From assembly GCF_000212735.1 (NCBI RefSeq), contig NC_015510.1, positions 868,001 to 932,000 on the forward strand: DNA of 64,000 bases, read 5' to 3'. Each line of letters starts with the position of its first letter. Position 1 is the stretch's first letter. Under the pieces are notes generated by a model, which searched no databases, had not been told where the DNA came from, and worked only from the letters and a program-made list of their open reading frames with translations. Below, piece after piece: positions 23,844 through 48,090 of this stretch. This DNA comes from Haliscomenobacter hydrossis DSM 1100 (lineage in GTDB: Bacteria; Bacteroidota; Bacteroidia; Chitinophagales; Saprospiraceae). A program made the position numbers and the translations under genes.

Positions 23844-23922
23844 AACCAAGTATAAATTATCCCAAGTTTAAAATGCAAAATTGAATCGCTCTACGATCAA
23901 GCCTCGACAATGCATTTTTCTC

Positions 23923-24083: not shown

Positions 24084-24134
24084 CAAAATGATTCTTTTTG
24101 CGCAAGAAAAATTCGGGATACCAAATCTAAAAAA

Positions 24135-29451: not shown

Positions 29452-32400
29452 ATGATGCGACTAAACAAACTCGTTGTTTTAGTCTTGGCTTTTTTTTGCT
29501 GTCACCTAACAGTAATTGCACAACAGGTAACAGGGAAAGTTACTGCCAATGACGGAACTCCTTTGCTTGGAGTAAACATTTCCGTCAAAGAGACCAAAAC
29601 TGGTACTATTTCAGAATCGAATGGAGCATTCCAAATTGCTGCCTCTCCAGGTAACACTTTGGTTTTTAGCTACATCGGATTTGCGACCTACGAAGTTACA
29701 CTTGGCAATGAAAAGAATGTGGATGTCACGCTGAAAGAAGATGCTCAAAGCCTGACGGAAGTAGTGGTAACCGCGCTGGGTGTCCAAAGGGAATCCAAGA
29801 AATTGGGCTATTCCGTAACCGCGGTGAATACAGATCAGCTCACCCAAAACAGAACGACTAACGTGATGGAGTCGCTGGAAGGTCGGGTGGCAGGTCTGAA
29901 TATTACCCCTCCGGCGGCCGGTGCAGGGTCCAGTATGCAGATACGTTTACGCGGGCAAGCTGCGTTTGCAGGAGCAAACAACGCCCCTTTGATTGTCATC
30001 AATGGGCTTCCGATTGATCAGGGTGCTCGGGGTGTGAATGGTTTGGGAACCCCACGTGACCTTGGTGATAACTTGTCAAACGTTAACCCGGATGATATAG
30101 AAAGTATGACCGTATTGAAGGGCGCAACTGCTGCGGCAATTTATGGTGCCAGAGCCGCCAACGGTGCCATCATCATCACCACCAAATCTGGCCGAAAGAA
30201 TCAGGGTATCGGCGTGGAATATAGCTCCAATTACTCGACCCAACACGCACTGAATTTCTTTGATTTCCAGACGGAATACGGTCAAGGTACCGGAGGAAAA
30301 AGACCAACGAGTGGCGCAAACGCGGCGACTACGGGTCATTTTGCCTGGGGCGAGCGCTTGGATGGAGTACCCACGCCCATATTTGATGGTTCTTTGCAGC
30401 CTTACTCGGCTAATCCAGACAATCTTTTTGGCTTTTTACAGACAGGAACAGACTTCACCAATACGATTGCTATGTCTGGTGGCGGAGCGAATGGAAGCTT
30501 CAGGGCTTCATTTTCCAACACGGATGCTGAAGGCATCACTCCAAACAATGAGTACAATAGGAAGATTGCCAATGTAGGGATCAATCACAACATTTCTAAA
30601 AAACTCAAGCTGCAGTTGAACATTAACTACACCAATGAGCAACAGGTTAACCCACCACAAATTGGTACACAAGGGCCAGGAGCTGTAAACTTTTTTACCA
30701 GACTAGCTACGTCCATTCCACTATCAGCTTTGAAAAATAGTGCAATAGCGGCCAATGGAACGGAGACGCTGACTTCCGGTTTTCAGGGTACCTTATTGAA
30801 CCCCTATTATGCTTTAGCAGTGGGTCAACGTTATGAAACGAACAGAGATCGGTTTTTGTCAACCGCTACTTTAAGGTATGATCTGACCGATTGGTTGTAT
30901 GTGCAGGGTAGATACAACTATGACTTTGCTCTGACTTTTACGGAGTCTCACGATCCGGGAGGGATAGGTACCAGCGTGCCAACCAATGCGGATGGTACTT
31001 TTAAAGGAGGATATAATTTGTCGGAGAGTAAAGGAACGGATGTAAATGCTGATTTCCTGGTCGGTGGTGGCAAAGAGTTTGGTAAGTTTTCAGTAGATGC
31101 CAATGTTGGTGGAAACACCTGGAGGGTCAAAAACAACGGCTTTAATCAAAGTTCGTCAAACTTTATCGTCCGTGATCTTTATTCCATCGGAAACGGTAGT
31201 GTTCGCAATCAGGGTTATGGTTTTTCCCAATACAGGGTTAATTCACTGTATGGCTGGGCCGAACTTGGGTACAACAACCTGCTTTACCTCAACTTTACTG
31301 GCAGACAAGATTGGTTCTCCGTCCTGAATCCAGAGGACAACAGCGAGCTTTACCAATCTGTTTCGGGTAGTTTTATTTTCTCCGAGTTGATGAAAAACCA
31401 GACCTGGCTTTCATACGGTAAGTTGAGGGCTTCCTGGGCAGAAGTAGGTAGCTCAAATGGGGTAAATCCCTACGACGGGGTGCTGACTTATGGGATCAGT
31501 CAAAACCAATTCCAAGGCCAAACGACTGCTGGTATTTCAGGAAACTCTGCACCCAACCGGTTCTTACGGCCATTTAGTGTAGAAGAGAAAGAAATTGGCA
31601 TTGAACTGAGGATGTTTGGCAATCGCGTAACACTGGACGTTTCGGCTTTTGACAAAATAACCACCGATCAGGTATTGGATGTTCAATTGTCCAATACTTC
31701 CGGATACAACAGTTCTAAGGAAAATCTTGGTTCCTTAAAGAATAGTGGCTTGGAATTCTTGGTTGAAGTTAAACCCATCCAAACCCCCAATTTCAGCTGG
31801 ACAAGTTCCTGGAATCATGCCTTTCTGGCTACAAAAGTACTTTCAGTTGGTGCGCCAAGTGAGATCATTGTGCTCAACTGGGGGGCTACTGGAAATGAGT
31901 TCATTGGGCAACTACGGTATGTAGAAGGGCTACCCATGAACCAGGTTTATGCAAGAACCTATTTAAAAAATGAAGAAGGCCAGATTCTCCTCACCGACCA
32001 AGGTCGTTTAATTCCAACTACGGACTACGTAAGTTTTGGTAGCTCGATTCCTAAACACACTGGTGGTTGGAACAATGCATTTACCTATAAAAACTTGAGT
32101 ATCAACATCCACTTTGATTACAAGTTAGGTGGGGTCGTCATCTCTTCGACGGCTTTGAATGCGAACAGACAAGGACACTCCAAGCAGTCTTTGGTTGGTC
32201 GTAGGGAGGGAGAAAAGGGTGTTGTATTCCCTGGTGTTTACCGATCAAATGAACAGCCCAATACCACGGCGGTTGATCCAGCTACATTTTATGCAGATTA
32301 CCGCAACAATCAAATGGGCGATATCGTGACCTTTAAGTCTGATTTTGTCAAGCTGAGAAACGTATCGATATCCTATAATCTTACCGATTTGATGCGGAAA

Positions 32401-32592
32401 TCAAATGTCCTTGGGTTCATCAAGGGGCTATCGGTGACTGCTTCTTGTCGAAATGCGGCACTGCTTTACAAGGATATACCTGACCTCGATCCAGAAGCCA
32501 TTCAATCATCGGGAGACTTCAGGTCTGGTTATGAGAACACCTCTCTGCCAACCACCCGCAATTTCAATTTTAGTCTTAATGCCAAATTCTAA
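29452..32592 (+). CDS. SusC-like TonB-dependent outer-membrane transporter (locus 1)
   Basis: A 1046-residue protein with a Sec signal (residues 1-24), an N-terminal carboxypeptidase-D regulatory-like domain (about 25-105), a plug domain beginning EVVVTALGVQ (about 105-230) and a 22-strand barrel to the C-terminal aromatic residue (NFSLNAKF). It imports oligomers or bound ligands in cooperation with the SusD partner, whose start codon overlaps its stop by one base. It is the first gene of the catabolic region that runs to 48.1 kb. The substrate is unknown, but the neighbours point to sugar acids, lactones or phenolic esters. Confidence 0.93.
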   Translation: MMRLNKLVVLVLAFFCCHLTVIAQQVTGKVTANDGTPLLGVNISVKETKTGTISESNGAFQIAASPGNTLVFSYIGFATYEVTLGNEKNVDVTLKEDAQSLTEVVVTALGVQRESKKLGYSVTAVNTDQLTQNRTTNVMESLEGRVAGLNITPPAAGAGSSMQIRLRGQAAFAGANNAPLIVINGLPIDQGARGVNGLGTPRDLGDNLSNVNPDDIESMTVLKGATAAAIYGARAANGAIIITTKSGRKNQGIGVEYSSNYSTQHALNFFDFQTEYGQGTGGKRPTSGANAATTGHFAWGERLDGVPTPIFDGSLQPYSANPDNLFGFLQTGTDFTNTIAMSGGGANGSFRASFSNTDAEGITPNNEYNRKIANVGINHNISKKLKLQLNINYTNEQQVNPPQIGTQGPGAVNFFTRLATSIPLSALKNSAIAANGTETLTSGFQGTLLNPYYALAVGQRYETNRDRFLSTATLRYDLTDWLYVQGRYNYDFALTFTESHDPGGIGTSVPTNADGTFKGGYNLSESKGTDVNADFLVGGGKEFGKFSVDANVGGNTWRVKNNGFNQSSSNFIVRDLYSIGNGSVRNQGYGFSQYRVNSLYGWAELGYNNLLYLNFTGRQDWFSVLNPEDNSELYQSVSGSFIFSELMKNQTWLSYGKLRASWAEVGSSNGVNPYDGVLTYGISQNQFQGQTTAGISGNSAPNRFLRPFSVEEKEIGIELRMFGNRVTLDVSAFDKITTDQVLDVQLSNTSGYNSSKENLGSLKNSGLEFLVEVKPIQTPNFSWTSSWNHAFLATKVLSVGAPSEIIVLNWGATGNEFIGQLRYVEGLPMNQVYARTYLKNEEGQILLTDQGRLIPTTDYVSFGSSIPKHTGGWNNAFTYKNLSINIHFDYKLGGVVISSTALNANRQGHSKQSLVGRREGEKGVVFPGVYRSNEQPNTTAVDPATFYADYRNNQMGDIVTFKSDFVKLRNVSISYNLTDLMRKSNVLGFIKGLSVTASCRNAALLYKDIPDLDPEAIQSSGDFRSGYENTSLPTTRNFNFSLNAKF

Positions 32593-34166
32593 TGTCTATG
32601 AAACAGTTTAAAGGACTTTTGCTGACCAGTGCAATTTTCTTCTTGCTGGGAGGTTGCGATAAGGATTTTGTAGAGTTAAACACGAATCCTTATGCCGTAA
32701 CCGATCTTGATCCAGCGCTTTTGTTTGTTGGTGCTCAACGCTCGCACCTGGGTGGATGGGAAACAGAACACACGATTGTTCAGCACTTTGTGAACCCCTT
32801 CAACTCAGGAGCCACGCTTGGCCCGAATTTTAATGCCGACATCGACAACTTCAACAATGGAAAATGGGACGGTTCTTATCCCAACATCATCAAAAACCTG
32901 GTTCAAGCCCTTTCACTTTTAGAAGGGAGTAGTGGCCGGGTAAACTTACAAAGCATGTTGCGCATCTGGAAGGCCCAGGTATTCATGGGTTTGGTAGATA
33001 CCCATGCAGATATTCCTTACTTCAACGCAGGACAGGCTTTTCTTAAAGGTAGTGAGTATTTCTTCCCAGCCTATGACGATGATGCAGCCATTTACGCAGA
33101 TCTGGAAAAGGAACTCAGAGAGGCTATCGCGGCGCTGAATCCTAGTGGCGACTTTGTTTCAGCTGATCTCTTTTTTGGTGCGAATGGATCTGTTAAAACC
33201 ACTACTGCCACAGCACAGGTGGACAAGTGGAAAAAACTGGGTAATTCGTTGTTGCTGAGATTGGGCATGCGGTATTCAAAGTTGGATGCAAACAAAGCCA
33301 AGACGATTGTTACAGACGCGTTTAACGGCGGAGTGATGAAATCCAATGATGATAATGCCTGGGTTAAGTACGATGGTACCCTCTTTACCAATGGAGCCAA
33401 CGGGGGGCTGGTCAACAACAACCCTTATTTCTACTATGCTGCCGAGCCTTTAGTGGAGCAATTGAAAACAACAGCGGATCCACGTGGGCCATTTATCGTT
33501 GCCACTTATGCCAACCCCTCAAATCCATTGGCTGACCCTGCCCCAAATACTAGCCTGGCAAGCCAGTTTGGTGTGCCTGTAGGGGTAATCAATACCGATC
33601 TGACCAAGCCAGCCTATCGCGGTGCCAAAGGTGGCGGGTACAACTATTCACAAATGAATGTGGGGGTGGTTGCCTCTTTAACTGCTCCTGATTTTTGGGT
33701 GACTTATCCGGAAGTTTCCTTACTCCTCGCCGAAGCTGCACAAAGAGGTTGGATTGCCGGGGGAGAAACCGCTGCCAAACAATATTACGAAGATGGCATC
33801 AAAGCAGACATCAAACGCTATGCACTGTATCCAAAATCTTCCACGGTTTCTGATGCAGACATCGCTACTTTTCTGGCCAGTCCAGGGATCGCTTATAATG
33901 CGGCGGATGCGCTCAAGCTGATCAACACCCAACTTTGGATTGCCTACATAAGAAATGGAACCCAGGCTTGGGCCAATTTCAGAAGAAGTGGCTTTCCTGC
34001 TTTGAGTCCAAATCGCTTCAATAACCTGCTCAACGGTGGATTCGTCAGGCGATTGTCTTATCCTGATTATGAGTTGGCTCAAAATCGGACGAACTACCAG
34101 AATGCAGTCAAGGCCATCGGTGGTACGGATAATTTGACGACAAGGGTATTTTGGGATAAAGAATAG
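32592..34166 (+). CDS. SusD-like_2 substrate-binding lipoprotein (locus 1)
   Basis: A 524-residue outer-membrane lipoprotein with a lipobox (LLGGC, Cys near 22). The N-terminal LNTNPYAVTDLDPALLFV pattern and the TPR-like helices place it in the SusD-like_2 (PF12771-type) branch rather than the classical SusD_RagB branch used by the second pair at 52 kb. It caps the SusC channel and binds substrate. The ATG overlaps the SusC stop codon (TAATG), a sign of translational coupling. It is followed by a bidirectional hairpin terminator. Confidence 0.9.
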   Translation: MSMKQFKGLLLTSAIFFLLGGCDKDFVELNTNPYAVTDLDPALLFVGAQRSHLGGWETEHTIVQHFVNPFNSGATLGPNFNADIDNFNNGKWDGSYPNIIKNLVQALSLLEGSSGRVNLQSMLRIWKAQVFMGLVDTHADIPYFNAGQAFLKGSEYFFPAYDDDAAIYADLEKELREAIAALNPSGDFVSADLFFGANGSVKTTTATAQVDKWKKLGNSLLLRLGMRYSKLDANKAKTIVTDAFNGGVMKSNDDNAWVKYDGTLFTNGANGGLVNNNPYFYYAAEPLVEQLKTTADPRGPFIVATYANPSNPLADPAPNTSLASQFGVPVGVINTDLTKPAYRGAKGGGYNYSQMNVGVVASLTAPDFWVTYPEVSLLLAEAAQRGWIAGGETAAKQYYEDGIKADIKRYALYPKSSTVSDADIATFLASPGIAYNAADALKLINTQLWIAYIRNGTQAWANFRRSGFPALSPNRFNNLLNGGFVRRLSYPDYELAQNRTNYQNAVKAIGGTDNLTTRVFWDKE

Positions 34167-34245
34167 ACTTGAAGTGAGTTGATAATCAAGTCATTGAACT
34201 ATTTTTTAATTGTTTTGACATAGACCCCATTATTTGTTTTTTGAG

Positions 34246-34302
34246 TTAAGTGCTCCCATTACACAGTCCACCTTCGGCGGCTGCGTAATGGGAGTATTTA
34301 AG
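34246..34302. terminator. Bidirectional hairpin terminator
   Basis: Stem CTCCCATTAC (34253-34262) / GTAATGGGAG (34285-34294), extended outward by TTAAG and CTTAA-like flanks. A and T tracts on both sides suit termination of the convergent SusD and dehydratase genes. Confidence 0.75.
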
Positions 34303-34317
34303 AAATTAAACCCTTTT

Positions 34318-35607
34318 TTATTCAAAAAATGGTATCCCCTGAGCGGCATATTTTTTCAAACCTTCTTCATTTACACTCACCCCAATACCTGGCTTGTCCG
34401 ATACTTTGATGAAGCCTTTTTCTACAAATTCTGGACCATCAAAATTGACAATCTCTTTCCACATTACATCTTTGTGGTAATAAATCTGCCATTCCAAAAT
34501 CATAAAATTGGGCACGGAGGCACATACGTGGGCAGCCGCCATTGCGCCCAGATAAGAAGCCACCATGTGGGGTGCAAAAGGCACATAATACAAATTGGCC
34601 AGGTTCGCAATGCGTTGACCTTCACCCAGTCCACCTGCTTTTTGCAGATCCGGCATGACGATATCTACCGCGCCTTTTTCCAACAAGGGTCGGAAGCCAT
34701 AAGCCAAATAATGGTTCTCACCCGCACAAATTGGCGTGCTGGTCGATTTAGTGATTTCCGCGTAAGCATCAACGTTCTCAGCCGGGATGGGCTCTTCCAA
34801 CCACATCAGGTTCAATGGCTCCAATACTTTAGCCGCGCGCTGGCCAGTGGGGAAGTCATAACGCCCGTGCATGTCGGCACAAATGTCAATATTCGGCCCT
34901 ACCGCTTGCCGGGCAGCAGCCATTTGGTCATACATTCTCTGGATTTCAGCGGGCCCGGCGGTCCAGTTGTAGCGGTCGTACTTGTTGGGGTCGTTGCCCT
35001 GATCCAGGTCAAATTTTACAGCAGTCATCCCCATTGCAACGGCCTCTTTTGCAGCGGCAGCAAAGTCTTCTGGCTTAGGCAACTGGTTCTGATACAGTGC
35101 CGTATCCATGTAAACCCGCACCTTATCGCGAAACTTACCGCCCAATAGCTGATATACTGGAACGTTCAGCGCTTTCCCAGCCAAATCCCATAGGGCAGTT
35201 TCAATTCCAGACAACACCGCGATGTACATACCTGCCTGCGCGCCTCCAAAAACCCCACCTTTTCTAATCTGATCGAATATCCGGTGGACGTTAAGTGGGC
35301 TCTGGTCTCTCAGCATCATCCCAAAACGTTTGGCTAAATGATAGGCACCTCCTACTGCATCCACCCCTTCTCCATAACCGACAATATCCTGATTGGTGGT
35401 GATTTTGATGAACATTCTTCCTCCGCCTCTCAGGTAGGCAACTTGGACATCTTTGATTTTTAGATCAGAAGGAGCTGACAACTTAGGGTTGACGTCCACC
35501 GCATTGGTATACCCTTTGCCAAAAGTTTGGGTTAGCCCCGTAAACCCCATTGCACCAACCAAGGCGCTTTTGCTCAAAAACGAACGTCTTGAAGATGTTT
35601 TTTTCAT
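34318..35607 (-). CDS. Tat-exported enolase-superfamily sugar-acid dehydratase
   Basis: A 429-residue member of the mandelate racemase/muconate lactonising branch of the enolase superfamily. A Tat signal is visible (SSRRSFLSKSALVGAMG). The capping N-terminal domain and the barrel with metal ligands can be seen: Asp in ADMHGRYD near 242, Glu in WLEEPI near 270 and Glu in CAGENH near 295, with the general-base His in FAPHMV near 345. Closest in style to galactonate/gluconate dehydratases. Family members are normally cytoplasmic, so export is unusual. It is probably co-transcribed with the RraA gene 34 bases upstream. Confidence 0.88.
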   Translation of the reverse strand: MKKTSSRRSFLSKSALVGAMGFTGLTQTFGKGYTNAVDVNPKLSAPSDLKIKDVQVAYLRGGGRMFIKITTNQDIVGYGEGVDAVGGAYHLAKRFGMMLRDQSPLNVHRIFDQIRKGGVFGGAQAGMYIAVLSGIETALWDLAGKALNVPVYQLLGGKFRDKVRVYMDTALYQNQLPKPEDFAAAAKEAVAMGMTAVKFDLDQGNDPNKYDRYNWTAGPAEIQRMYDQMAAARQAVGPNIDICADMHGRYDFPTGQRAAKVLEPLNLMWLEEPIPAENVDAYAEITKSTSTPICAGENHYLAYGFRPLLEKGAVDIVMPDLQKAGGLGEGQRIANLANLYYVPFAPHMVASYLGAMAAAHVCASVPNFMILEWQIYYHKDVMWKEIVNFDGPEFVEKGFIKVSDKPGIGVSVNEEGLKKYAAQGIPFFE

Positions 35608-35641
35608 GTTTATAGTTTAATAAATGATGATGAACTTGAAC

Positions 35642-36598
35642 CTACCAAGTTCTGGTTTTAAGCAGTTCCTCCACCCGCTCGGGTGATACTGGAAGCTTCA
35701 TTTTGTTGTCCTTCAACCACTGAGAAAAATCTTTCTCAATCTCATCTGACCAGCGGGTATCGATTTGCCCGGCGGTGTATTTTTTCTCCCGCAATCTGGC
35801 GTGACCAAACATGTCTCTTAGCCGAACGATTTCTGAAGATTCAACTACTTGCTGGGCCAGGTGTGCCGGAATAAAAATCACCCCACCATCTCTGGCCAGC
35901 ACCACGTCGCCCGGCATTACCGTAGCTGTCCCGATTCGAGTGGGCGTGTTGATGCCAATCAACGTGGTATTCAATCGGGGAACCCGGTCATTGGGGCCAA
36001 GGCTGCCAAAGTGATGCGAGGGATGGTAAGTTTTGAAGTAGACGGTAAAATCTGCCATTTCTTTCATTCCGTTGACGTCTCTGATTGGCCCATCATAAAT
36101 AAAGCCATTGCCAGATCTACCAAGAATAGAGTTGGCCAGGTTGTCGCCCACGGTTGGGCCATCGATTTCAGCACCGTGGTGGTCTACCACATACACGTCG
36201 CCGGGTTGGAGCATGTCGATGGGCCAGGCATTGGGGGAGAGAATCCGACCATCCTTTTTACCTTTTTCCTGAATGGCCTTGTGGATGTCTGGTCTGCCGG
36301 GAATAAATGTAGCCGTTAAAGCTCTGCCGACCAACACTCCTTCAGGGTGGACTTGCATCCAATTCCCTTCGTATTGATAATTGAAACCAGCGCCTCGACA
36401 GGTCGCCCAAGCTTCCTCCAGCGTGACCGATTTCATCCTTTTTAAAATGTCGTCGGAAACTTTAGGCCTCCCATCAGCCAATCGTTCCCCTTTCCACTCT
36501 GGAGTAAGATAGGCCAATTCTTCTTTGGACATCTGCTGCCCCTGAAGCATTAGCGGGAGCATTGCTAAAAGGCCCCAAAACTTGATCAAGGTTTTCAT
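35642..36598 (-). CDS. Exported RraA-family aldolase-like protein (copy 1)
   Basis: The start at 36598 opens a Sec signal (MKTLIKFWGLLAMLPLMLQG), giving 318 residues. The core is an RraA/dimethylmenaquinone-methyltransferase-like domain. The 4-hydroxy-4-methyl-2-oxoglutarate aldolase signature Arg-Asp (DGPIRDV) is kept near residue 170, and GDVVLARDGGVIFIPAHL near 245-262. Such proteins cleave 2-keto-4-hydroxy acids to pyruvate with a divalent metal; the RNase E inhibitor RraA is a relative without that role here. Signal-bearing RraA homologues are specific to Bacteroidota and a few other phyla. It is the first gene of an operon with the dehydratase. Confidence 0.85.
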   Translation of the reverse strand: MKTLIKFWGLLAMLPLMLQGQQMSKEELAYLTPEWKGERLADGRPKVSDDILKRMKSVTLEEAWATCRGAGFNYQYEGNWMQVHPEGVLVGRALTATFIPGRPDIHKAIQEKGKKDGRILSPNAWPIDMLQPGDVYVVDHHGAEIDGPTVGDNLANSILGRSGNGFIYDGPIRDVNGMKEMADFTVYFKTYHPSHHFGSLGPNDRVPRLNTTLIGINTPTRIGTATVMPGDVVLARDGGVIFIPAHLAQQVVESSEIVRLRDMFGHARLREKKYTAGQIDTRWSDEIEKDFSQWLKDNKMKLPVSPERVEELLKTRTW

Positions 36599-36762
36599 GT
36601 TGAAAAAGATTTTAATGTTTTTTTGTTTGTTCAAAATAGGTTCAAGCAAGGTTAAGGAATTGAACTCAATTTAGCAAAAGAATAACTGTTTTTTTTACAA
36701 TTATTAATCTAAAAATGAAATAAAATTGCTAGATTCATCCCATCAACAAAACATAATAAATT

Positions 36763-38703
36763 ATGAGTGACCAAAGATCCAACAAAATTTTTTTCTATTC
36801 CATTTTGTCTGCTGCGATTGTCATTGCAATGACGAGTTGCACCTCTTCTCCTGAACCAGCGTGGCAGAAGCTCAACCAGGAACTAATTAGTAAACACAAT
36901 TTGAAAGTCCGGAATCTGTCCGGATTACCCACAAACGATATTGAGTCAAACCTGAAAGACGGACAAGTTACCAATCTTGACCAGGTAGACAGTATTGATT
37001 TAGCCCCAGGCGTTAAAGCAAAAATCTTCTGGGGAACTGGCACCATGGTGAGTGTGATTGAACTGGCACCCAATGCAAAAATCCCCGAAGCCGAATTGCC
37101 AGCTGAAAGGTTTGCCTTTGTGCTTGAAGGTTCTATTGAGCAATTGATCAATGGGAAATCGGTTAGCCTGATTTCCAAAGAAAGGGAAGCTCCGGATGGT
37201 ACACATAGCGGTACGCCTCGTGTCGATTTTGTCTATCTGGAAAAAGGAAGCAAAAGTGCCGTGACCGCAGGTAGTGCAGGTGCCAAATTATTGGAGATTT
37301 ACAGCCCCTTCCGTTTAGATTATCTTGAAAAAGCGGGCGTTACGAATCTACCGACAAAAATGGCTGAACTTACCAATCCGGCGAAGCCAAATGTAAAGCC
37401 GAATCAGGTGTACGATTTGTACGATTTTCAACTCACCGAACTTGCCCCTGGCGCTCATTCCAGACTCATTGCGGGGAAGAACACCCAGTTTAGTTTTATT
37501 TCAATGGAACCGGGATCAGTTTTTGGACATCATATCCACCCTGAAGAACAAATGATGATGGTACTCAGAGGTGAATGTGATGAAATTTTGCTGGATACGG
37601 AACAACGCATGACACCCGGTGACGTGGTGGTCATTCCGGGCAATATGGTTCATGGGGCAAAAATGAGCGCGGTAGGATGTGATGCGCTGGACATTTTCTG
37701 GCCAGTCCGCCCAGACTACATGGAAAAGGAGCAAGCCAGAATGGCCGCTTACCGGGCGATTATTCCAGAGAATGCAAAACCTGAATTATTGGTGGATGGA
37801 ACAAAAACCAAGCCCAGTCTGACTTTCAGCGAAGGCCCAAAATGGATGAACGGCAAAGTCTATTTCTCCAATATGTATTTTGATCAAAACTGGACCGCCG
37901 ATCCTTCCAAGAGTTCTACGGTCGAATTAAGCCCTGATGGCACTTATAAAAATATTACTCAAGGCAAAATGCAAACGAACGGGCTCTATCCGTATAAAAA
38001 CGGCAACCTGCTGGTTTGTGATATGATCGGGCATCAGGTGGTGGAGATGACCCCGGCCGGTAAAGTTGTAAAAGTGATTGTAGATCAATACGATGGCAAA
38101 CCCATCGACGGCCCTAACGATATCATTACCGATGCCAAAGGAGGGATTTATTTCACCGATCCTCAGTTTACGATGGAGCCGAAGAAGTCCCAACCCGGTC
38201 GGGCGGTGTATTACGTTGCACCGGAAGGTAAAGTTACCCGACTGACGAAGCCCAACGAATTCGCGATGCCCAACGGGATTGTGTTGTCACCGGATGGTAA
38301 AACCTTGTACATCAACAATTGCTACGATGACGAATCCTGGTTTCCGGTAAATAGTGAGAAGGACAATTACATCTGGGCTTACGATGTGAAGGAAGATGGA
38401 ACCATCAGCAACGGCAGACAATTCGCCAAGTTGTTCCTAACCGGTAATGTGCTGGACAGAAAAGGCAAGTCATCGAGTGCCGATGGAATGGCCATTGACA
38501 AAAAGGGCAATCTTTATGTAGCCACCTACTATGGGGTGCAAATTTTCAATGCCGCAGGAAAATATGTTGGAATGATCAATTTACCGAGCTTCCCGGTGAG
38601 CCTTTGTTTTGGGGGCAAAGACATGAAAACCCTGTACATCGTCAGCTACAGCAAGGTGTATACCATTCGCACCAACATGGAAGGCTTCGTCAATTATTTA
38701 TAA
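36763..38703 (+). CDS. Bicupin-SMP-30 fusion lipoprotein
   Basis: A 646-residue lipoprotein (lipobox MTSC, Cys26). Residues 60-190 form a cupin without obvious metal ligands. Residues 220-330 form a second cupin with the metal motif GHHIHPEEQ near 254-262, and residues 345-646 a six-bladed SMP-30/gluconolactonase propeller. The propeller keeps its Ca-ligand pattern: Glu in TFSEGP, Asn in GPNDII, Asn in MPNGIV and Asp in SADGMA. Function: hydrolysis of sugar lactones in the periplasm, with the cupins perhaps binding or isomerising the sugar. It is co-transcribed with the next gene (21-base gap). Confidence 0.85.
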   Translation: MSDQRSNKIFFYSILSAAIVIAMTSCTSSPEPAWQKLNQELISKHNLKVRNLSGLPTNDIESNLKDGQVTNLDQVDSIDLAPGVKAKIFWGTGTMVSVIELAPNAKIPEAELPAERFAFVLEGSIEQLINGKSVSLISKEREAPDGTHSGTPRVDFVYLEKGSKSAVTAGSAGAKLLEIYSPFRLDYLEKAGVTNLPTKMAELTNPAKPNVKPNQVYDLYDFQLTELAPGAHSRLIAGKNTQFSFISMEPGSVFGHHIHPEEQMMMVLRGECDEILLDTEQRMTPGDVVVIPGNMVHGAKMSAVGCDALDIFWPVRPDYMEKEQARMAAYRAIIPENAKPELLVDGTKTKPSLTFSEGPKWMNGKVYFSNMYFDQNWTADPSKSSTVELSPDGTYKNITQGKMQTNGLYPYKNGNLLVCDMIGHQVVEMTPAGKVVKVIVDQYDGKPIDGPNDIITDAKGGIYFTDPQFTMEPKKSQPGRAVYYVAPEGKVTRLTKPNEFAMPNGIVLSPDGKTLYINNCYDDESWFPVNSEKDNYIWAYDVKEDGTISNGRQFAKLFLTGNVLDRKGKSSSADGMAIDKKGNLYVATYYGVQIFNAAGKYVGMINLPSFPVSLCFGGKDMKTLYIVSYSKVYTIRTNMEGFVNYL

Positions 38704-38724
38704 ATCGTCACAACCACCAAACAA

Positions 38725-39726
38725 ATGAAAAAAATCACGCTGAAGGTGTGCTTGTTTGCACTTTCGATCTGCTTTTGTGGGTTTACGCAGGTGTCCGGTC
38801 AAGAGATCGGCACCATTGAGTTCATTTCACCAGAGCTTTCGAGCCTCATCAAAAAAGAAGCGAAGGTAGAAGTGATTGCCGAAGGTTTTCAATTTACGGA
38901 AGGACCTTTATGGCTGGAGAAGGAGAAAATGCTCTTGTTTTCTGACATTCCTGCCAATACCATTTACAAATGGACCGAAGCCAAGGGCAAAGAAGTATAT
39001 GTGAAGCCAGGGGGGTACACGGGCAGCGAACCCAGGGGTGGGTTCATGGGGCCCAATGGATTGTACAAAACCAAAGATGGTAAGTTGTGGGTTTGCCAAC
39101 ATGGCGACCGCAGAATTGCCGCTATGGATGCCCCTCTCAATGCGCCAAAGTCCAATTTTGTAACCGTCGCAGGATCCTACGATGGCAAAAAATTGAATAG
39201 TCCGAATGACTTTTTTATGTCTTCCAAAGGTGAGCTTTATTTTACCGACCCGGCTTATGGTTTTGAAGGCGGAATGAAAGATCCCAAAAAAGAGCTCCCG
39301 TTTCAAGGGGTCTATAAAATGGACAAAGCCGGAAAGGTCACGCTGTTGATTGATTCCATGCAAGCGCCCAATGGCATTGGCATCCTTCCCGATGGAAAAA
39401 CCTTATTGGTAGCCAACACCCAGGGAAGAGGTAGAGGCTGGTACGCTTATGATATTGCCTCGAATGGTACCTTGGAAAACGCGCGTGTGTTTTACAATCC
39501 AGGAAATATCCGAGAACCTGGAGGCTGCGATGGATTTAAAATCGATAAAAAAGGGAATGTGTTTGCGGCAGGGCCGGGTGGTATCTGGATTTTCACGAAG
39601 GAGGGTAAGTTGATTGGAAAAATCAAGGTGAATAATTTGACTGCGGCCAATTGTGCTTTAACCGCGAATGGCAAAACGCTTTACATTACGGCTACGCAGT
39701 ATTTGTTAAGGGTTAAAATGCGATAG
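38725..39726 (+). CDS. Exported SMP-30/gluconolactonase
   Basis: A 333-residue protein with a Sec signal (residues 1-25, ending VSGQ) and a full SMP-30 propeller. The four metal ligands can be placed: Glu59 (FTEGP), Asn161 (NSPND), Asn216 (APNGI) and Asp269 (GGCDG). It probably opens an aldonolactone produced by the PQQ dehydrogenase at 45.8-48.1 kb, releasing an aldonic acid in the periplasm. It is second in a two-gene unit with the cupin-SMP-30 fusion. Its 3' end faces a family-B palindrome. Confidence 0.9.
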   Translation: MKKITLKVCLFALSICFCGFTQVSGQEIGTIEFISPELSSLIKKEAKVEVIAEGFQFTEGPLWLEKEKMLLFSDIPANTIYKWTEAKGKEVYVKPGGYTGSEPRGGFMGPNGLYKTKDGKLWVCQHGDRRIAAMDAPLNAPKSNFVTVAGSYDGKKLNSPNDFFMSSKGELYFTDPAYGFEGGMKDPKKELPFQGVYKMDKAGKVTLLIDSMQAPNGIGILPDGKTLLVANTQGRGRGWYAYDIASNGTLENARVFYNPGNIREPGGCDGFKIDKKGNVFAAGPGGIWIFTKEGKLIGKIKVNNLTAANCALTANGKTLYITATQYLLRVKMR

Positions 39727-39769
39727 GTTGTATTCAGTGGTGAACACTAGCCATTTTGAATGTGACTTG

Positions 39770-39928
39770 ATTTTGGCTACGCCAAAATGATAATTCACCA
39801 CGACGACACGACGATCACGACGTTTTGCTCCGCACCACACGACGCAAGCGTCGTGTACAAAGCGCGAAGCGCCTAAACGTCGTGATCGTCGTGTCGTCGT
39901 GGTGAATTAATCAAGCAGCGAAGCTGCT
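39770..39928. repeat. Nested palindrome, family B, copy 2
   Basis: The 159-bp element has perfect 32-bp arms (39791-39822 and 39878-39909, starting TAATTCACCACGACGACACG), an inner hairpin CACGACGCAAGCGTCGTG (39838-39855), a small GCGC-GAA-GCGC hairpin (39862-39872), and end hairpins ATTTTGGC-TAC-GCCAAAAT (39770-39788) and AGCAGC-GAA-GCTGCT (39914-39928). Layout and core sequence match copy 1 read in the opposite direction. It lies between convergent genes. Confidence 0.88.
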
Positions 39929-39957
39929 CTTTAGCAGCTCGTGTTTGAAAAGTGTCC

Positions 39958-40302
39958 CTAGTTTTCTTTCTTTACCCGAGCCAATTTCATTTCCCCTCTT
40001 TCGTTTTTGGTCACAATTTCGTCGTCACTCACCAATTCTCCAGTGTTGTTGATGGTCATCTCGTTAAACGAAACGGTGTAAGAAAATTTCTTTCCATCCA
40101 CTTTTCCATTCTCGATTTTCCGTTCTCCAAATTGAGTTTTCCAAATGCCCGTTAAAGTTGTTCCTTCAACTTTAAACGTGTAATTGATTTCCATCGTGCC
40201 GTTTGGCGTTTCACGGGTGCCTTTCCAGTCACCGTCAATGCCAGATTGGGCGTAGGTACTGAGGCATCCAAATAGGAGCAATACTGCGATCAGATGTTTC
40301 AT
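39958..40302 (-). CDS. Small exported beta-sheet protein, unknown function
   Basis: A 114-residue protein with a Sec signal (residues 1-19, ending TYAQ). The rest is a run of alternating beta strands (GDWKGTRETPNGTMEINYTF, then LTGIWKTQFGERKI) that looks like half a lipocalin or a calycin-like barrel. Similar small proteins accompany sugar-degradation genes in Bacteroidota. It lies 42 bases downstream of the second RraA gene on the same strand and so may end that operon. No catalytic residues are evident. Confidence 0.7.
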   Translation of the reverse strand: MKHLIAVLLLFGCLSTYAQSGIDGDWKGTRETPNGTMEINYTFKVEGTTLTGIWKTQFGERKIENGKVDGKKFSYTVSFNEMTINNTGELVSDDEIVTKNERGEMKLARVKKEN

Positions 40303-40344
40303 GTTAAATGAATTGTAGGTTAATGAAATTTTAGATTTTAGTGA

Positions 40345-41271
40345 TTACCATGTTCTTTTGCTCATCACTTTGTCGAGTTCTGCACGGGTCATCTTGCCCA
40401 GCTCGGGATGTTTTTCCAGCCATTTTAAAAACTCCGTTTTGATCTCATCCGTCCACTCGCTGTCGATTTCTCCGGTGCTGTATTTGTTGGTTCTGACCAT
40501 TTCAAAACCAAACTGGTCTTTTCGAATGACAAATTCCGATGTGCTGACCACTTGTTCGGCCAGATGTGCGGGCACAAAAAGTACACCTTCGATGGTCGCA
40601 ATAACCAAGTCTCCGGGAAGAACGATGGCATTGCCGATTCGAATTGGGCTGTTCAGCCCCATCAGCACCATTTGCTCGGTGAAGGAGGGGTGAAAATCCC
40701 GTACAAAAGCATTAAAACCTTTGAGGTTGGTGATTTCCTGCAAATCCCGGCAAGCGCCATCAAAGACTACCCCGTTTCCAGATTTGCTAAAGATGGAATT
40801 GGCCAGGGTAGCACCCATGATTGGGCCGCCGCCGATTTTCCCAAAAGCATCGGCAACGTACAAGTCGCCTTTGGTGAGTACATCGATCGGCCAGGCATTG
40901 GTATTCCCTTTCCGGCCTTGTTTTGCCCCTCTCTCCTTGATGTTTTTTTCAACATCGGGTCGGCTGGGCAGGTACATGGCGGTGACTGCCCGCCCGGTCA
41001 TACTTTGCGTGTTGACCGTTTTCCAGCCACCTTCGTATTGGTTGAGGTAGCCTTCATTTTTCAGCACCGTCCAGGCATCGTCAATCATGATGTGCTTCGC
41101 CCTTTCCAAAAGGGCATCGGAAATTTTTGGCCTGCCGTCCTGAAACCTTTCTCCTTTCCATTCAGAGGTAAGAAAGATCAGTTCTTCTTTGGAAATGGTT
41201 TGCCCATGCAAAGAAGTTTCAATCGATAAGCAGACAACTAAGCCTAAAAAAATGGTGAACCATGCTTTCAT
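40345..41271 (-). CDS. Exported RraA-family aldolase-like protein (copy 2)
   Basis: The start at 41271 (MKAWFTIFLGLVVCLSIETS) gives a Sec signal. The ATG at 41310 would code through a palindrome arm. The 308-residue protein is a paralogue of copy 1 at 35642-36598, sharing EWKGERFQDGRPKISDAL, the AWPIDVL block and the Arg-Asp signature in FDGACRDL near 173. It is expected to be a metal-dependent pyruvate aldolase or a related lyase. The two copies lie in separate operons of one catabolic region, which may reflect two stereochemical substrates. Confidence 0.83.
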   Translation of the reverse strand: MKAWFTIFLGLVVCLSIETSLHGQTISKEELIFLTSEWKGERFQDGRPKISDALLERAKHIMIDDAWTVLKNEGYLNQYEGGWKTVNTQSMTGRAVTAMYLPSRPDVEKNIKERGAKQGRKGNTNAWPIDVLTKGDLYVADAFGKIGGGPIMGATLANSIFSKSGNGVVFDGACRDLQEITNLKGFNAFVRDFHPSFTEQMVLMGLNSPIRIGNAIVLPGDLVIATIEGVLFVPAHLAEQVVSTSEFVIRKDQFGFEMVRTNKYSTGEIDSEWTDEIKTEFLKWLEKHPELGKMTRAELDKVMSKRTW

Positions 41272-41299
41272 AAATGAATAATTTAATGCCCGTTCAAGC

Positions 41300-41649
41300 A
41301 TACCCCACATGGGCAGGGCTGTTAAGTTCTAAAGTAGCGCTAAAATCCAACCTTGAATAAAAGGGAGAATCTTTTAGCTACCAAAAATAAAAGTCGCGTA
41401 GCGACGAACCATTTTGTAGCGGTGGATTTTAACCCGCCGATGAAAATGGTCGATCTTGTTTTTAATAGCGTGCCGTAGGTACGACCAATTTTGACTAATG
41501 TAGGTCTCGTACCTACGGCACTCCATAACCTGATCACGCAACTGACGGCGGGTTAAAACCCGCCGCTACAATATGGGTCATCGCTACGCGATTTGTCGAT
41601 TCAGCGTAATTCATTACTAGAACTTAACAACCCTGCCCGCACGGGGTAT
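41300..41649. repeat. Three-level nested palindrome, about 350 bp
   Basis: Outer arms 41300-41331 and 41618-41649 share GGGCAGGGCTGTTAAGTTCT and its complement. Middle arms 41394-41439 and 41546-41591 (46 bases, starting TCGCGTAGCGACGAACCATT) pair with few mismatches. The inner arms GTGCCGTAGGTACGA (41470-41484) and TCGTACCTACGGCAC (41507-41521) pair perfectly. It fills the gap between two minus-strand genes and ends two bases before the stop codon of the upstream one. No ORF is seen. Confidence 0.9.
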
Positions 41650-41650
41650 T

Positions 41651-43279
41651 TCACTTAAGAATACTTTTAACCGCTGTCGCCCCCAGCCGTTCTCCAAGCT
41701 GGGTAAGGTATAAACTTTGGGGCGTAACATGCCTGTCCATTGCTTCCACGTGGCCATTGGATTTGGTCAAATCCTGTAAGGCGGCATTGAATACAACCGC
41801 ATTGAGCCCGATATGCCCAAAAGAATAATTTTGTGCCGTGGGTGGTTGTTGGACCAAATAATCTCCCTCACAATTCCAAAATACAATATTGGCACCAGCC
41901 CAACCAATGATGAAGTCCCAGAAGCGGGCGGTAAGTGGGGCTTTCACATTGTCGTACAAGACCCCATTAGACCAACGGTTGTGTGGCTCGCTGGAAGAGT
42001 AAGGCTGAATAGCCGCACATTCCAAAAAGACATTTCCACTTGCTTCCGAACCTTGTAATACGAAGGAATGCCGTCCTTTTTCGGAAACACATCTTTGAAC
42101 CAAACAGAACTGGCCATTCATCTGGAAGGTGAATCTCCTTCCGCCCCAGCGCTGCGAAACAGGTTCTCTAGAGTCGCAATCCTGCACAGTAACCCATTTC
42201 GTTCCGGCGTTGGCTTGTACTACACTGCTTCCAAAGTGCAGCGCGGTCATGTTCCTCACCCAGGCATTTTTGACATGGGTAAGGTCGATGAAATTAGCGT
42301 AATGATTTTCATCGGAGAAATATTCCTCCCCCTGATACCGATGTTGGGCACCCAAGTCGTCCCGATCCATGTTCCCATATTCTTTGGTACGTATAGAAGG
42401 GTCATACTCGGAGATTCCACGCAAGTTTTCAATGCCAACCTGTTCGATCCGCTCGTCGTTGTATTTGTAAAGGACTCCCCCACCCCAGCGTTTATCGATC
42501 GCCGTGAAAATCGGTGCGTCCACCGTAACGGTATTTCCACTAATGTCAACAATTGTCCGGTCGAAGTTGATGTCAAAAGGTCTCCAGCGGTTCCTTCCAA
42601 CCGTTGCGGTGTCTAAGCCAATTTTTTTGATCCAATCTTCATTTCCAATGCGGCGTACCAGCACCCGATCTCCCTTTTTAAATGCTTTGGCAGAGGTTAT
42701 TCTGAAACGCAGGGCACCGACTGGTACGTATTCATCAGTAATGCTTTGTTTAGACTCTTCAAGCAGTTTTATACCGGATGCACCACTAATGTTGATCAGC
42801 GCGGGACGTCTAAATCTCGGTCCGCTTCCCTCTGCAGGCTTGGTTATTTTGCCATAAAGAATCGTACCTACATCGCTTCGCCCCTCTCCACGCAGTACCA
42901 CCCCTGATGCCTTGATGTAAATGGGCTTATTCAATTGATACATGCCCATTTTTAGGAGTATGGCTCCTCTAAACCCTGCAGCATTAGGAGGGAGGGCAGA
43001 GACCCGATCAATAGCGGCCTGTATGCTATCAGCGTTATCTCCTAGCACGGGCCAAATGGTTGCTTTTACGGCCACGTAAGGAATGGGCACACCGCCACCT
43101 TTATAGCCAGCATTTGAAAAATCAGGGATCGTATTGCCAAGGCTGTCAGCAACATATACCAGTTTTCCATCAACCCCGGGGAAGACCAAAGAGGTGGTGG
43201 GTAGCATGTCCTGCCCCGCACACACAAAAGTGTGGAGGCAGCATGCTACGATTGCGATCAAGGAGATTTTAATTCTCAT
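41651..43279 (-). CDS. Exported right-handed beta-helix protein, pectate-lyase-like
   Basis: A 542-residue protein with a Sec signal (residues 1-22). The region around 85-125 (DSIQAAIDRVSALPP and ILLKMGMYQLNKPIYI) is the classic entry of a pectate lyase-3/parallel beta-helix fold. The later sequence has typical helix-rung repeats such as VKNAWVRNMTALHF and NGQFCLVQRCVSEKG. It is probably a polysaccharide lyase or hydrolase for a uronic-acid-containing glycan acting outside the inner membrane. It lies 36 bases downstream of the esterase gene on the same strand. The catalytic residues cannot be assigned. Confidence 0.75.
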   Translation of the reverse strand: MRIKISLIAIVACCLHTFVCAGQDMLPTTSLVFPGVDGKLVYVADSLGNTIPDFSNAGYKGGGVPIPYVAVKATIWPVLGDNADSIQAAIDRVSALPPNAAGFRGAILLKMGMYQLNKPIYIKASGVVLRGEGRSDVGTILYGKITKPAEGSGPRFRRPALINISGASGIKLLEESKQSITDEYVPVGALRFRITSAKAFKKGDRVLVRRIGNEDWIKKIGLDTATVGRNRWRPFDINFDRTIVDISGNTVTVDAPIFTAIDKRWGGGVLYKYNDERIEQVGIENLRGISEYDPSIRTKEYGNMDRDDLGAQHRYQGEEYFSDENHYANFIDLTHVKNAWVRNMTALHFGSSVVQANAGTKWVTVQDCDSREPVSQRWGGRRFTFQMNGQFCLVQRCVSEKGRHSFVLQGSEASGNVFLECAAIQPYSSSEPHNRWSNGVLYDNVKAPLTARFWDFIIGWAGANIVFWNCEGDYLVQQPPTAQNYSFGHIGLNAVVFNAALQDLTKSNGHVEAMDRHVTPQSLYLTQLGERLGATAVKSILK

Positions 43280-43315
43280 TGAAAATGGTTTAGTGCTTGT
43301 CTACATTTGGCGATT

Positions 43316-45759
<2,444 letters not shown>

Positions 45760-45813
45760 CTGCGATCTTGTTTGTTTATAGTTTCAAAAAAACGTACGAG
45801 CTTGCTCTTTGCT

Positions 45814-48090
45814 TTATTTGCTAGTCGGAAGCGCATACACTACATAACCACGTGGTAATGCTCCAGGCTTTTTGGAGTAATCATAACTGTCGCGGGTAAA
45901 GTTGGAAGTGGCGTTGATGACCAGGTATTGTTTTCCATTCAGGGTGTACATACTGGGCTGGGCATTTGCCTCATAGCTCAGGGTAGTCTCCCATAAAATG
46001 TTCCCATTGTCCGCATCAAATGCGTACAACTTACCTCCTTTAGCGGTGGCAAAAACTACCCCGGTTGAGGTTACCACCATGCCTTTTCTGAGGGTACCGC
46101 CCGGTGAACCTTTGCTGGGGTCTCCCTTGGCGTACAAGGAATCCAGGCCAACGGGTTTTCTCCACTTGATGGTTCCTTTGTTCAAATCGTAAGCCACAAT
46201 CGAAGACCAGGGTGGTTCCGCTAAACCTGACCATTCAGTTCCATAATCCGTGATGTAACGATCTTTGGGGTGTTTTACTTTAGCGGGATACTCCGTCATG
46301 GGCGCACTCCTTTGTGCATCCGGTTTGATGGTAGCGCCACCAGAAGCGACCACGGGCCCTTTGGGAGGGGCAGTATTGGTTCGACGAGGGAAATTAAAGC
46401 TCCGCGGAGTACCTCCCAGATAGCGGTAAAGCGCTTCAAGGGTTTCCTCACTGACATGCGTGAAGCCAGGCATTGATCCCTTGCCGCCCAGGACAATGTC
46501 TTTAAATTCGGTGTAGATGATGTATTGTCCGGCATTGACCAAAGCTGGGCCAGTCACGCCCTCCATGTTTTTTCCATGACAAGGTTGACAGGTAGAGGCA
46601 TAAAAAGTTTTTACCTGAGCGATTTGATCCACCGACAGGTCCATTTTCGGAGACTCTACTTTTTTCAAGCGATAGGTGGAGGCGTGTTCCTGCGTCAGAA
46701 TGTACATCAATCCATTTTTGGGATCGGAGGCGGTATTGCCATAATTGGCCCCACCCAAGGCACCAGGCATCATGATGGTTTCGTATTGGTCGGAAGGCGG
46801 AATGTACAGTCCTGATTTGGCCGTGGCCAACCTTTTGTGCCATTGTTGTTTGATGCTGTCCGGGAAAAAAGGATTCAGGGTTTCTAAAGTCACTTCATGC
46901 CGGGTGAAATTGGGGAGTGAAGAAATGGGCTGGGTAGGCCAGGCTTTTTCTCCCGGCATTTTGCTGGCTGGGAAGGGTTTTTCTTCGATGGGGAATAGTG
47001 GTTTTCCGGTTTCCCGGTCGAATACAAACAAGAATCCATGTTTGGTAGCCACCGCTACGGCATCAATGTTTTTTCCACCATGATTCACCGTTAACAATTG
47101 TGGAGCACTGGCGAGATCGACGTCCCAAAGGTCGTGATGTACAATTTGATAATGCCACAAGCGTTTCCCCGTGCGTGCGTCCAATGCCACTAGACAATTG
47201 CCGAAAAGGTTACTGCCCAGGCGGTCGGCACCATAAAAATCATAGGTTGGTGAACCAATGGGCAAAAAGGCAATTCCTCTGGTTTGATCCACCGAGATTT
47301 CACTCCATACATTCACTCCTCCAACGTACTTGTAGGCATTCTTTGGCCAGGTTTTGTAGCCAAATTCTCCCGGTTGGGGGATGGTATGGAAAGTCCATTC
47401 CAGTTTGCCACTGACTACATTGTATGCCCGCACAAAGCCCGGTGCCGAGAAAAAACCTTCGCCCGGAGCCGAGCCTACGATCACCAGGTCATCATAAATC
47501 ACGCCGGGCATCATGGCCTGCATTCTGCGGATGGAAGAGGGCTCACGGCCCAGCCCTTCGCGCATGTCCGTATATCCATCATTGCCAAAACTCGTGATGG
47601 TTTTTCCGGTTACTGCATCGATGGCCTGGAGGGAGTTGTTGAGGGTGAAAATCAGGCGTTTGTCCTTTTTGTCTTTGCTCTCCCAATAATTGAGGCCCCT
47701 TCTGCTCAATCCCATGAGATTGGCATGAATCCAGATCTCCTTGCCACTCAGCACACTCACCGCAATCAACGAATTGTTCTTTCCCATCACATACATCGTG
47801 GTATCTACGATAATGGGGCTGAAGAAGTAGGGTTGCTGATCGCCCGAAGGATACGTCCAGGCCACTTGCATTTTGCCAACGTTTTCTTTGGTGATGTCCG
47901 CTGCTGCAAAATACCTCGATTGGTCGGGGCTGCCGCCGTAATGCGTCCAGGTGGTATGGGCTGGGTCGGTATTGTTGTAGCTATAATCCGCTAAGGACAA
48001 CAATCCAATAACTCCCAGCAATAGCAGTACAATAGAAGCGGGTGTAAAAAGGCTTGCTGCCTTTTTGTTTTTGTTGCGATTTTTAATCAT
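45814..48090 (-). CDS. PQQ-dependent sugar dehydrogenase with heme-c insert
   Basis: The start at 48090 (MIKNRNKNKKAASLF, then one hydrophobic anchor) gives 758 residues; earlier ATGs read through an inverted repeat. It is an eight-bladed quinoprotein of the membrane glucose-dehydrogenase type, with typical segments HHDLWDVDLASAPQ near 315 and GGANYGNTASDPKNG near 455. A cytochrome-c motif CQPCH lies near residue 505, inserted between propeller blades. The enzyme oxidises an aldose or alcohol in the periplasm using PQQ and passes electrons through its heme to the respiratory chain. It heads an operon of four or more genes. Confidence 0.9.
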   Translation of the reverse strand: MIKNRNKNKKAASLFTPASIVLLLLGVIGLLSLADYSYNNTDPAHTTWTHYGGSPDQSRYFAAADITKENVGKMQVAWTYPSGDQQPYFFSPIIVDTTMYVMGKNNSLIAVSVLSGKEIWIHANLMGLSRRGLNYWESKDKKDKRLIFTLNNSLQAIDAVTGKTITSFGNDGYTDMREGLGREPSSIRRMQAMMPGVIYDDLVIVGSAPGEGFFSAPGFVRAYNVVSGKLEWTFHTIPQPGEFGYKTWPKNAYKYVGGVNVWSEISVDQTRGIAFLPIGSPTYDFYGADRLGSNLFGNCLVALDARTGKRLWHYQIVHHDLWDVDLASAPQLLTVNHGGKNIDAVAVATKHGFLFVFDRETGKPLFPIEEKPFPASKMPGEKAWPTQPISSLPNFTRHEVTLETLNPFFPDSIKQQWHKRLATAKSGLYIPPSDQYETIMMPGALGGANYGNTASDPKNGLMYILTQEHASTYRLKKVESPKMDLSVDQIAQVKTFYASTCQPCHGKNMEGVTGPALVNAGQYIIYTEFKDIVLGGKGSMPGFTHVSEETLEALYRYLGGTPRSFNFPRRTNTAPPKGPVVASGGATIKPDAQRSAPMTEYPAKVKHPKDRYITDYGTEWSGLAEPPWSSIVAYDLNKGTIKWRKPVGLDSLYAKGDPSKGSPGGTLRKGMVVTSTGVVFATAKGGKLYAFDADNGNILWETTLSYEANAQPSMYTLNGKQYLVINATSNFTRDSYDYSKKPGALPRGYVVYALPTSK

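Follow-up and report, generated by a model that had tools for sequence, protein, structure and literature searches.

Can an oxidative sugar-acid pathway run to carbon–carbon cleavage outside the cytoplasm? The question is raised by eleven clustered genes (29452–48090) in a 64,000-nucleotide stretch of the Haliscomenobacter hydrossis DSM 1100 chromosome (NC_015510.1, 868,001–932,000; hereafter the window). The genome has 8,771,651 bases on 4 contigs, the chromosome accounting for 8,371,686 bases. The cluster encodes a SusC/SusD tandem together with relatives of pyrroloquinoline quinone (PQQ) dehydrogenases, SMP-30 lactonases, enolase-superfamily dehydratases and RraA-family lyases, in which the original prediction saw a possible complete periplasmic pathway. 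Assignment of the eleven proteins with Pfam and NCBIfam agrees with the gene positions and families of that prediction. Judged from sequence, the cluster is probably an exported non-phosphorylative sugar-acid pathway joined to SusCD uptake.

In the scheme we propose, SusCD and either an esterase or a lyase-like protein would bring hemicellulose-derived sugars into the periplasm, where an anchored PQQ dehydrogenase would oxidize the sugar at C1 and pass electrons to its own haem c. The resulting lactone would be opened by the SMP-30 proteins; family membership suggests both of these steps. A dehydratase exported by twin-arginine translocation (Tat), with its catalytic residues in place, would then remove water to give a 2-keto-3-deoxy sugar acid. 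Sec-exported RraA1, which retains an Arg-Asp signature, would cleave this acid, most likely to pyruvate and an aldehyde, and an SBF/BASS transporter, encoded in relatives and at a second locus of this genome, would take in pyruvate or the keto acid.

A conserved, exported dehydratase–RraA pair

Two adjacent reverse-strand genes form the core of the proposal. The first (34318–35607) encodes an MR/MLE enolase-superfamily protein (Pfam MR_MLE_N/C), a putative sugar-acid dehydratase of type A; the second (35642–36598) encodes its partner RraA1, a member of the RraA/HMG-CHA-aldolase family (Pfam RraA-like, 1.6e-17). With 15 aligned exported RraA proteins as the query, a scan of GTDB genomes returned at least 541 RraA relatives, of which the best 80 loci were analysed (6 from Acidobacteriota and the others from Bacteroidota by tree label, near-duplicates included). 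Since a simple open reading frame (ORF) caller picked shadow ORFs in some GC-rich loci, gene presence was counted with tblastn. At 74/80 of these RraA-selected loci, RraA has an enolase-superfamily neighbour no more than 600 bp away; the two share a strand in 70, and the neighbour is directly downstream of RraA in 68. A recount using real match ends and a looser cut-off (E ≤ 1e-5) gives 75, 71 and 69, respectively. The six loci that are not paired comprise three from Acidobacteriota (L053, L065 and L078), L084, L063 and L100, the last on a contig that ends 80 bp past RraA.

We also searched each protein separately in a selection-free sample of 296 genomes spread evenly over the Bacteroidota phylum, H. 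hydrossis included. RraA is present at E ≤ 1e-40 in 18 genomes and at 60% identity or more in 9; a dehydratase of at least 64% identity occurs in exactly the same 9, and the pair is adjacent in 9/9 (in one of these, G295, the dehydratase is split over two contigs, into fragments of 76% and 57% identity). Among 80 genomes made up of H. hydrossis and its kin, RraA1-like proteins occur in 10. The dehydratases come as type A (~425 amino acids, as in the window) and type B (~480 amino acids), which is often found in the same operon beside a second RraA copy. H. hydrossis has such a second pair near 4.66 Mb, a type B dehydratase with RraA, followed by an SBF transporter gene. The exported dehydratase–RraA module is real across many Bacteroidota families, in a minority of genomes (18/296 with any such RraA), and in this pair the co-occurrence expected of the pathway genes is strongly kept. 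An interrupted copy was seen at G126:C17:126120-127027, where two overlapping matches, one containing a TGA, cover the RraA of the pair and the adjacent dehydratase frame is open.

Every enzyme named in the original prediction bears an export signal or anchor, as it had stated. The dehydratase begins with a twin-arginine motif (SRRSFL); RraA1, RraA2, the SMP-30 protein, the lyase-like protein, the esterase and the double-cupin protein have Sec-type signals, each with Gln at the likely +1 position; the cupin/SMP-30 protein has a lipobox-like MTSC and the quinoprotein an N-terminal hydrophobic segment (all read from translations). Gln at mature +1 is described as the Bacteroidota 'Q-rule' (PMC5837995), and this column is Gln in 120/128 of our aligned RraA rows. 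From the best 80 loci we took 105 RraA proteins with a recognisable core motif and 98 clustered enolase-superfamily proteins. A Sec-like hydrophobic stretch precedes the core in 101/105 of the former, against 100/2100 internal control windows, and RRx[FLVIM] with a hydrophobic stretch is found in 96/98 of the latter, against 135/1960 control windows; at these far lower control rates, chance export motifs are rejected. Two of the four RraA rows that fail the hydrophobicity rule have over-extended ORF starts, and the two enolase-cluster proteins that have no Tat start (L063 and L113) are other enolase-superfamily genes. H. hydrossis encodes TatC. Its MR_MLE proteins carry a Tat signal in 2/5 cases, just the two adjoining an RraA, with the other three beginning at the enzyme domain; Sec-like signals are present on 3/3 of its RraA-family proteins.

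Catalytic residues of the dehydratase and RraA

The type A dehydratase aligns with E. coli DgoD at D245, H247, E271, E297, D320 and H347. D245, E271 and E297 are invariant with DgoD in 10 rows, and H247 and H347 align with two DgoD histidines; we take the three acids to be metal ligands and the two histidines to be catalytic, as in DgoD. Type B keeps the second histidine and not the first. Family and residues both favour the predicted dehydratase role, but the protein scores 248 bits against the NCBIfam galactonate dehydratase model, under its cut-off of 311, and is therefore filed as a superfamily member rather than as DgoD.

In the RraA alignment, R173 is present in 128/128 rows and D174 in 127/128. 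Both window proteins carry the two residues, in keeping with the original prediction. A 24-row family profile matches the 4-hydroxy-4-methyl-2-oxoglutarate/4-carboxy-4-hydroxy-2-oxoadipate (HMG/CHA) aldolase 3NOJ at 7.7e-13, an enzyme in which R123 is catalytic and D124 binds metal (PMC5065237). With export signals and a catalytic Arg-Asp, a role for these RraA proteins as RNase E regulators is rejected.

RraA1 and RraA2 part company at the D152 column (RraA1 numbering), which is Asp in 119/128 rows, RraA1 included. RraA2 (40345–41271, reverse strand; Pfam RraA-like, 1.1e-15), a Sec-exported paralogue, has GATL in place of the GDNL motif and hence Ala at this position, so that the pairing of two equivalent RraA enzymes holds for Arg-Asp but not here. 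It belongs to an Ala152 clade of 4 rows (support 99) with proteins from G262 (a genome of another family), Pontibacter ummariensis and G325. Lacking D152, RraA2 may have no activity by itself, or may be one subunit of a mixed oligomer. In two genomes, paralogues of RraA that carry Ser or Ala instead of Asp152 lie next to each other in tandem (L131:7215-9227 and L077:14223-16169), an arrangement that suggests a hetero-oligomer.

The characterized aldolase of this fold belongs to gallate/protocatechuate breakdown (PMC5065237) and a feruloyl-esterase-like gene is present in the cluster, which raises an aromatic-acid route: the esterase would free hydroxycinnamates, and the RraA proteins would be HMG/CHA-type aldolases acting on ring-cleavage products. 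We hold this to be very improbable. Pfam and NCBIfam matched none of the eleven proteins to a ring-cleaving dioxygenase family, cupin roles aside; genes near the pair in relatives concern sugar acids and hemicellulose; and the usual RraA partner is a dehydratase of sugar-acid type.

For a sugar-acid substrate, one of the closest known systems is FlDet of Flavobacterium sp. UMI-01, which like RraA1 is a Bacteroidota RraA-family protein for a 2-keto-3-deoxy sugar acid. FlDet converts 2-keto-3-deoxy-D-glucarate to alpha-ketoglutaric semialdehyde by dehydration and decarboxylation (PMC8563752). The final RraA step, which we name an aldolase reaction by analogy, may be a dehydration and decarboxylation instead. 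Compared by description only, FlDet differs from the window proteins in its source (cell extract, ~27 kDa), and the accessible part of its report mentions no export signal (PMC8563752).

A probable PQQ and lactonase feed to the core

Upstream oxidation would fall to a membrane-anchored, PQQ aldose-dehydrogenase-like quinohaemoprotein (45814–48090, reverse strand; Pfam PQQ and Cytochrome_CBB3), in which we find the predicted haem c site: a PQQ propeller with one CQPCH motif. Its D, K and W align with D466, K493 and W404 of E. coli Gcd, which we take to be the catalytic Asp/Lys and the Trp that stacks PQQ. Two forward-strand genes may supply lactonases. One encodes a cupin plus SMP-30/gluconolactonase-like lipoprotein (36763–38703; Pfam SGL 3e-39, Cupin_2 3.7e-13) and the other a Sec-exported SMP-30/gluconolactonase-like protein (38725–39726; SGL 5.4e-43), whose PDB relatives include 3DR2, named as an exported gluconolactonase.

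These genes recur with the pair beyond the window. G262 holds homologues of 10/11 window proteins at 62–85% identity within ~40 kb (SusC 62%, SusD 62%, dehydratase 84%, RraA1 79%, cupin/SMP-30 74%, SMP-30 69%, RraA2 85%, lyase-like 71%, double-cupin 66%, PQQ 69–70%), with an SBF gene between RraA1 and SusD; the exception is the esterase, whose nearest counterpart in this cluster is only 37% identical. In a further family, locus L139 (genome G185) has on one strand SusC, SusD, two Tat UxuA-like genes, RraA, a type B dehydratase, SBF, a second type B dehydratase, PQQ with haem and SMP-30; the stretch ends in a cut-off kinase gene resembling 2-keto-3-deoxygluconate kinases, under model cut-offs. 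L140 (G362), also on one strand, has RraA, dehydratase, SBF, dehydratase, an epimerase-like gene and PQQ, with an SMP-30 gene beginning at the end of the stretch. Within the genus of H. hydrossis, parts of the entire cluster are scattered over different contigs (L036, L041 and L044): G001 and G004 have RraA2, lyase-like and esterase genes on fragments at 86–93% identity or more (L041 and L044), and G004 also has the double-cupin and PQQ genes on fragments. As a gene set, a predicted full chain from PQQ to pyruvate is supported in three lineages—that of the window, G262 and G185/G362. A further PQQ dehydrogenase gene of H. hydrossis, at L152:4282-6483, is split by an internal stop.

Several observations weigh against one complete pathway. 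Homologues of the PQQ, lyase-like and double-cupin genes were found in 0/80 RraA-selected loci and SMP-30 in 7/80 only, in a set where 52/80 loci have at least 9.9 kb of flank on both sides and 28/80 are shortened by contig ends; six enzymes as a single conserved unit are rejected on these counts. (Of the other neighbours, esterase is found in 6 loci, SusC in 37, or 40 at E ≤ 1e-5, and SusD in 33.) G126, from the genus of G262, has the pair, its RraA interrupted, and no PQQ, SMP-30 or RraA2 gene in the 20 kb examined. The quinoprotein scores 330 bits against TIGR03074, short of the 833-bit cut-off, and what are presumably further active-site positions of Gcd (E591, N607 and D730) are N, L and G here, in a region where the four-row alignment has many gaps. 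H. hydrossis has no PqqE homologue above cut-off (best 70.8 versus 381 bits; other pqq genes were not searched), which may leave it dependent on PQQ from outside. No SBF gene is present among the ORFs scanned in the window cluster; the one seen in this genome lies at the second locus near 4.66 Mb. To these we add the sub-threshold dehydratase score, the alanine of RraA2, the possible alternative RraA chemistry and the use of simple rules and inspection by eye to assess export.

Such counts could mean that the pathway is the dehydratase and RraA alone, acting on sugar acids already in the imported glycan, with the PQQ and SMP-30 genes serving another role. We find this doubtful. The pair, PQQ and SMP-30 genes are kept together in G262 and L139, from different families. 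PQQ lies within 10 kb of RraA in 4/18 RraA genomes of the selection-free sample (H. hydrossis included) where 0.24 are expected (Poisson P 1.2e-4), and SMP-30 in 7/18 where 0.36 are expected. A strict PQQ homologue (E ≤ 1e-150) is found in 3/296 genomes (H. hydrossis and two more), each of which belongs to the 9 that have the pair. The PQQ contig of G004 differs from its RraA1 contig, so contig breaks hide some links. Of the whole-pathway proposal, the exported pair and the joint gene set in G262 and L139 stand, but the PQQ and SMP-30 genes are not core and RraA2 lacks the Asp. We think it likely that some lineages, the window's among them, have added PQQ and lactonase steps as a feed to a conserved core of exported dehydratase and RraA.

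Transporter, substrate and neighbouring genes

An SBF/BASS (sodium:organic-acid) transporter gene accompanies the pair in 35/80 RraA-selected loci by tblastn, three examples being Pfam-identified. BASS members are described as transporting pyruvate, 2-keto acids, glycolate and pantoate (PMC10645422), a range that fits the expected RraA product. Genes for hemicellulose use are also close by. The G262 cluster has two glycoside hydrolase (GH) family 43 genes, a GH51-type arabinofuranosidase, GH97, a GH3 xylosidase-like gene and a glucuronoyl esterase; in G126 an L-arabinose isomerase lies ~3 kb from the pair; and the representatives scanned include GH67 (5 loci) and UxuA (6 loci) in Spirosoma, besides IlvD/Edd in 6, FGGY kinase in 8 and GntP in 4 loci. 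From this gene content the substrate appears to be hemicellulose-linked, with D-xylonate, L-arabinonate, other 2R aldonates or (4-O-methyl)glucuronate-derived acids as candidates.

The last of these would imply different chemistry: a uronic acid, such as (4-O-methyl)glucuronate from xylan, would be oxidized to an aldarate and dehydrated, and RraA would dehydrate and decarboxylate the product like FlDet, or cleave it. The GH67 alpha-glucuronidase and UxuA genes near the Spirosoma pairs and the glucuronoyl esterase of G262 fit such a route. The dehydratase speaks against it, having the two-His, DgoD-like layout; glucarate dehydratases have a KxK layout. The SBF neighbour fits pyruvate, though other keto acids are possible. 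Literature points both ways: FlDet acts on 2-keto-3-deoxy-D-glucarate (PMC8563752) and the aldolase of the RraA fold uses HMG/CHA, which are dicarboxylates or tricarboxylates (PMC5065237), but FlDet came from cell extract and its accessible description speaks of no export. We regard uronate or aldarate breakdown as unlikely and retain the non-phosphorylative route to pyruvate and an aldehyde.

A second type of locus bears on the same point. In 4/117 loci, some overlapping, an exported RraA stands with a homologue of the DgaE family of pyridoxal phosphate-dependent ammonia-lyases (L138:7131-12216, L144:2976-14812, L034:7971-9636 and L141:8406-13009). RidA-like genes are present in L034, L138 and L144, and both an amidohydrolase/deacetylase and SBF in L138, L141 and L144. 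The DgaE homologue falls under model cut-offs and has a Tat-like start; this and other Tat-like or Sec-like starts on proteins of these loci were recognised by eye. DgaE converts an amino sugar acid to a 2-keto-3-deoxy acid. These loci suggest an exported route for amino sugar acids, again with an RraA lyase of this family as its last step, and replacement of the dehydratase by an enzyme with the same kind of product supports action of RraA on 2-keto-3-deoxy acids.

Taken more broadly, the data may, tentatively, reflect a modular extracytoplasmic sugar-acid catabolism in many Bacteroidota and some Acidobacteriota; we put this forward as a fair possibility rather than as our expectation. Interchangeable exported enzymes—dehydratases A and B, Tat UxuA-like dehydratases, and Tat DgaE-like ammonia lyases with exported RidA—would feed one exported RraA family, and pyruvate would enter via a dedicated SBF/BASS sodium symporter, such that sugars would be taken up as pyruvate and not as sugars.

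The proposed pathway shares its logic with the non-phosphorylative Entner–Doudoroff, Dahms and DeLey–Doudoroff routes (C1 oxidation, lactone opening, dehydration to a 2-keto-3-deoxy acid, cleavage). Those routes run their later steps in the cytoplasm and use an aldolase from a different family; in the window every enzyme has an export signal and the putative lyase is of the RraA family. Periplasmic PQQ oxidation, as by E. coli Gcd or in Pseudomonas and Gluconobacter, offers a membrane-anchored quinoprotein with the D466, K493 and W404 equivalents, and stops at the acid. The window protein differs from Gcd in a fused c-type haem domain and in not keeping the E591, N607 and D730 equivalents, and an exported dehydratase and lyase would follow it. 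As in polysaccharide utilization loci, a SusC/SusD pair is accompanied by exported, putatively hydrolytic genes, but the window also carries exported enzymes of sugar-acid catabolism, which are normally expected inside the cell. Among the open-licence papers listed by full-text searches (titles and abstract starts, with most subscription journals outside this scope), none described an exported RraA or exported dehydratase pathway. In libraries used here (Pfam/NCBIfam), the enolase-superfamily partners bear generic names only. If the proposal is true, carbon–carbon cleavage of sugar catabolism occurs in the periplasm, which changes the usual picture of Bacteroidota importing sugars before breakdown; electrons would be released straight to the respiratory chain, the phosphorylation cost avoided and pyruvate made outside the inner membrane. 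A large family of at least 541 RraA relatives, in which export signals were assessed for 105 proteins from the best 80 loci, would then also have a suggested function.

The remaining genes of the cluster concern uptake and glycan processing. The SusC-like TonB-dependent outer-membrane transporter (29452–32592, forward; Pfam Plug and CarbopepD_reg_2) has a Sec signal ending VIA–QQ, and is followed by a SusD-like lipoprotein (32592–34166, forward; Pfam SusD-like_2 3.4e-69) with a lipobox-like GGC. Candidate glycan-active genes among the eleven, by Pfam and NCBIfam, are only an esterase and a lyase-like protein. The former (43316–44437, reverse) is an exported feruloyl-esterase-like protein (Pfam Esterase) that matches the second half of an NCBIfam xylanase/feruloyl esterase model (1.1e-175; 586 bits versus a 1200-bit cut-off). 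The latter (41651–43279, reverse) is exported and possibly a polysaccharide lyase; this label draws on one partial match to a BT3328 hyaluronan-lyase model (9.3e-14); Pfam returned no match for the protein, and nothing in the PDB matched it convincingly. An exported double-cupin protein (44545–45759, reverse; Pfam Cupin_2, two stretches) was absent from the original prediction.

Outside the cluster, two tandem forward-strand genes (21013-23268 and 23910-26405), 3 to 8 kb upstream of SusC, encode proteins with Tat-like starts that by eye resemble molybdenum hydroxylases of the xanthine dehydrogenase/aldehyde oxidase type; these could oxidize an aldehyde product. On the other side, at 48983-51794 (reverse), an HNH-like protein and an AAA ATPase match PADLOC PDC-M62 B and A near full length (3.1e-95 and 1.4e-81), a candidate defence system. 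Elsewhere in the genome (L150:1066-2948, ~0.75 Mb), a Septu-like PtuA/PtuB pair (1.4e-118 and 1.9e-62) lies beside a non-exported enolase-superfamily gene.

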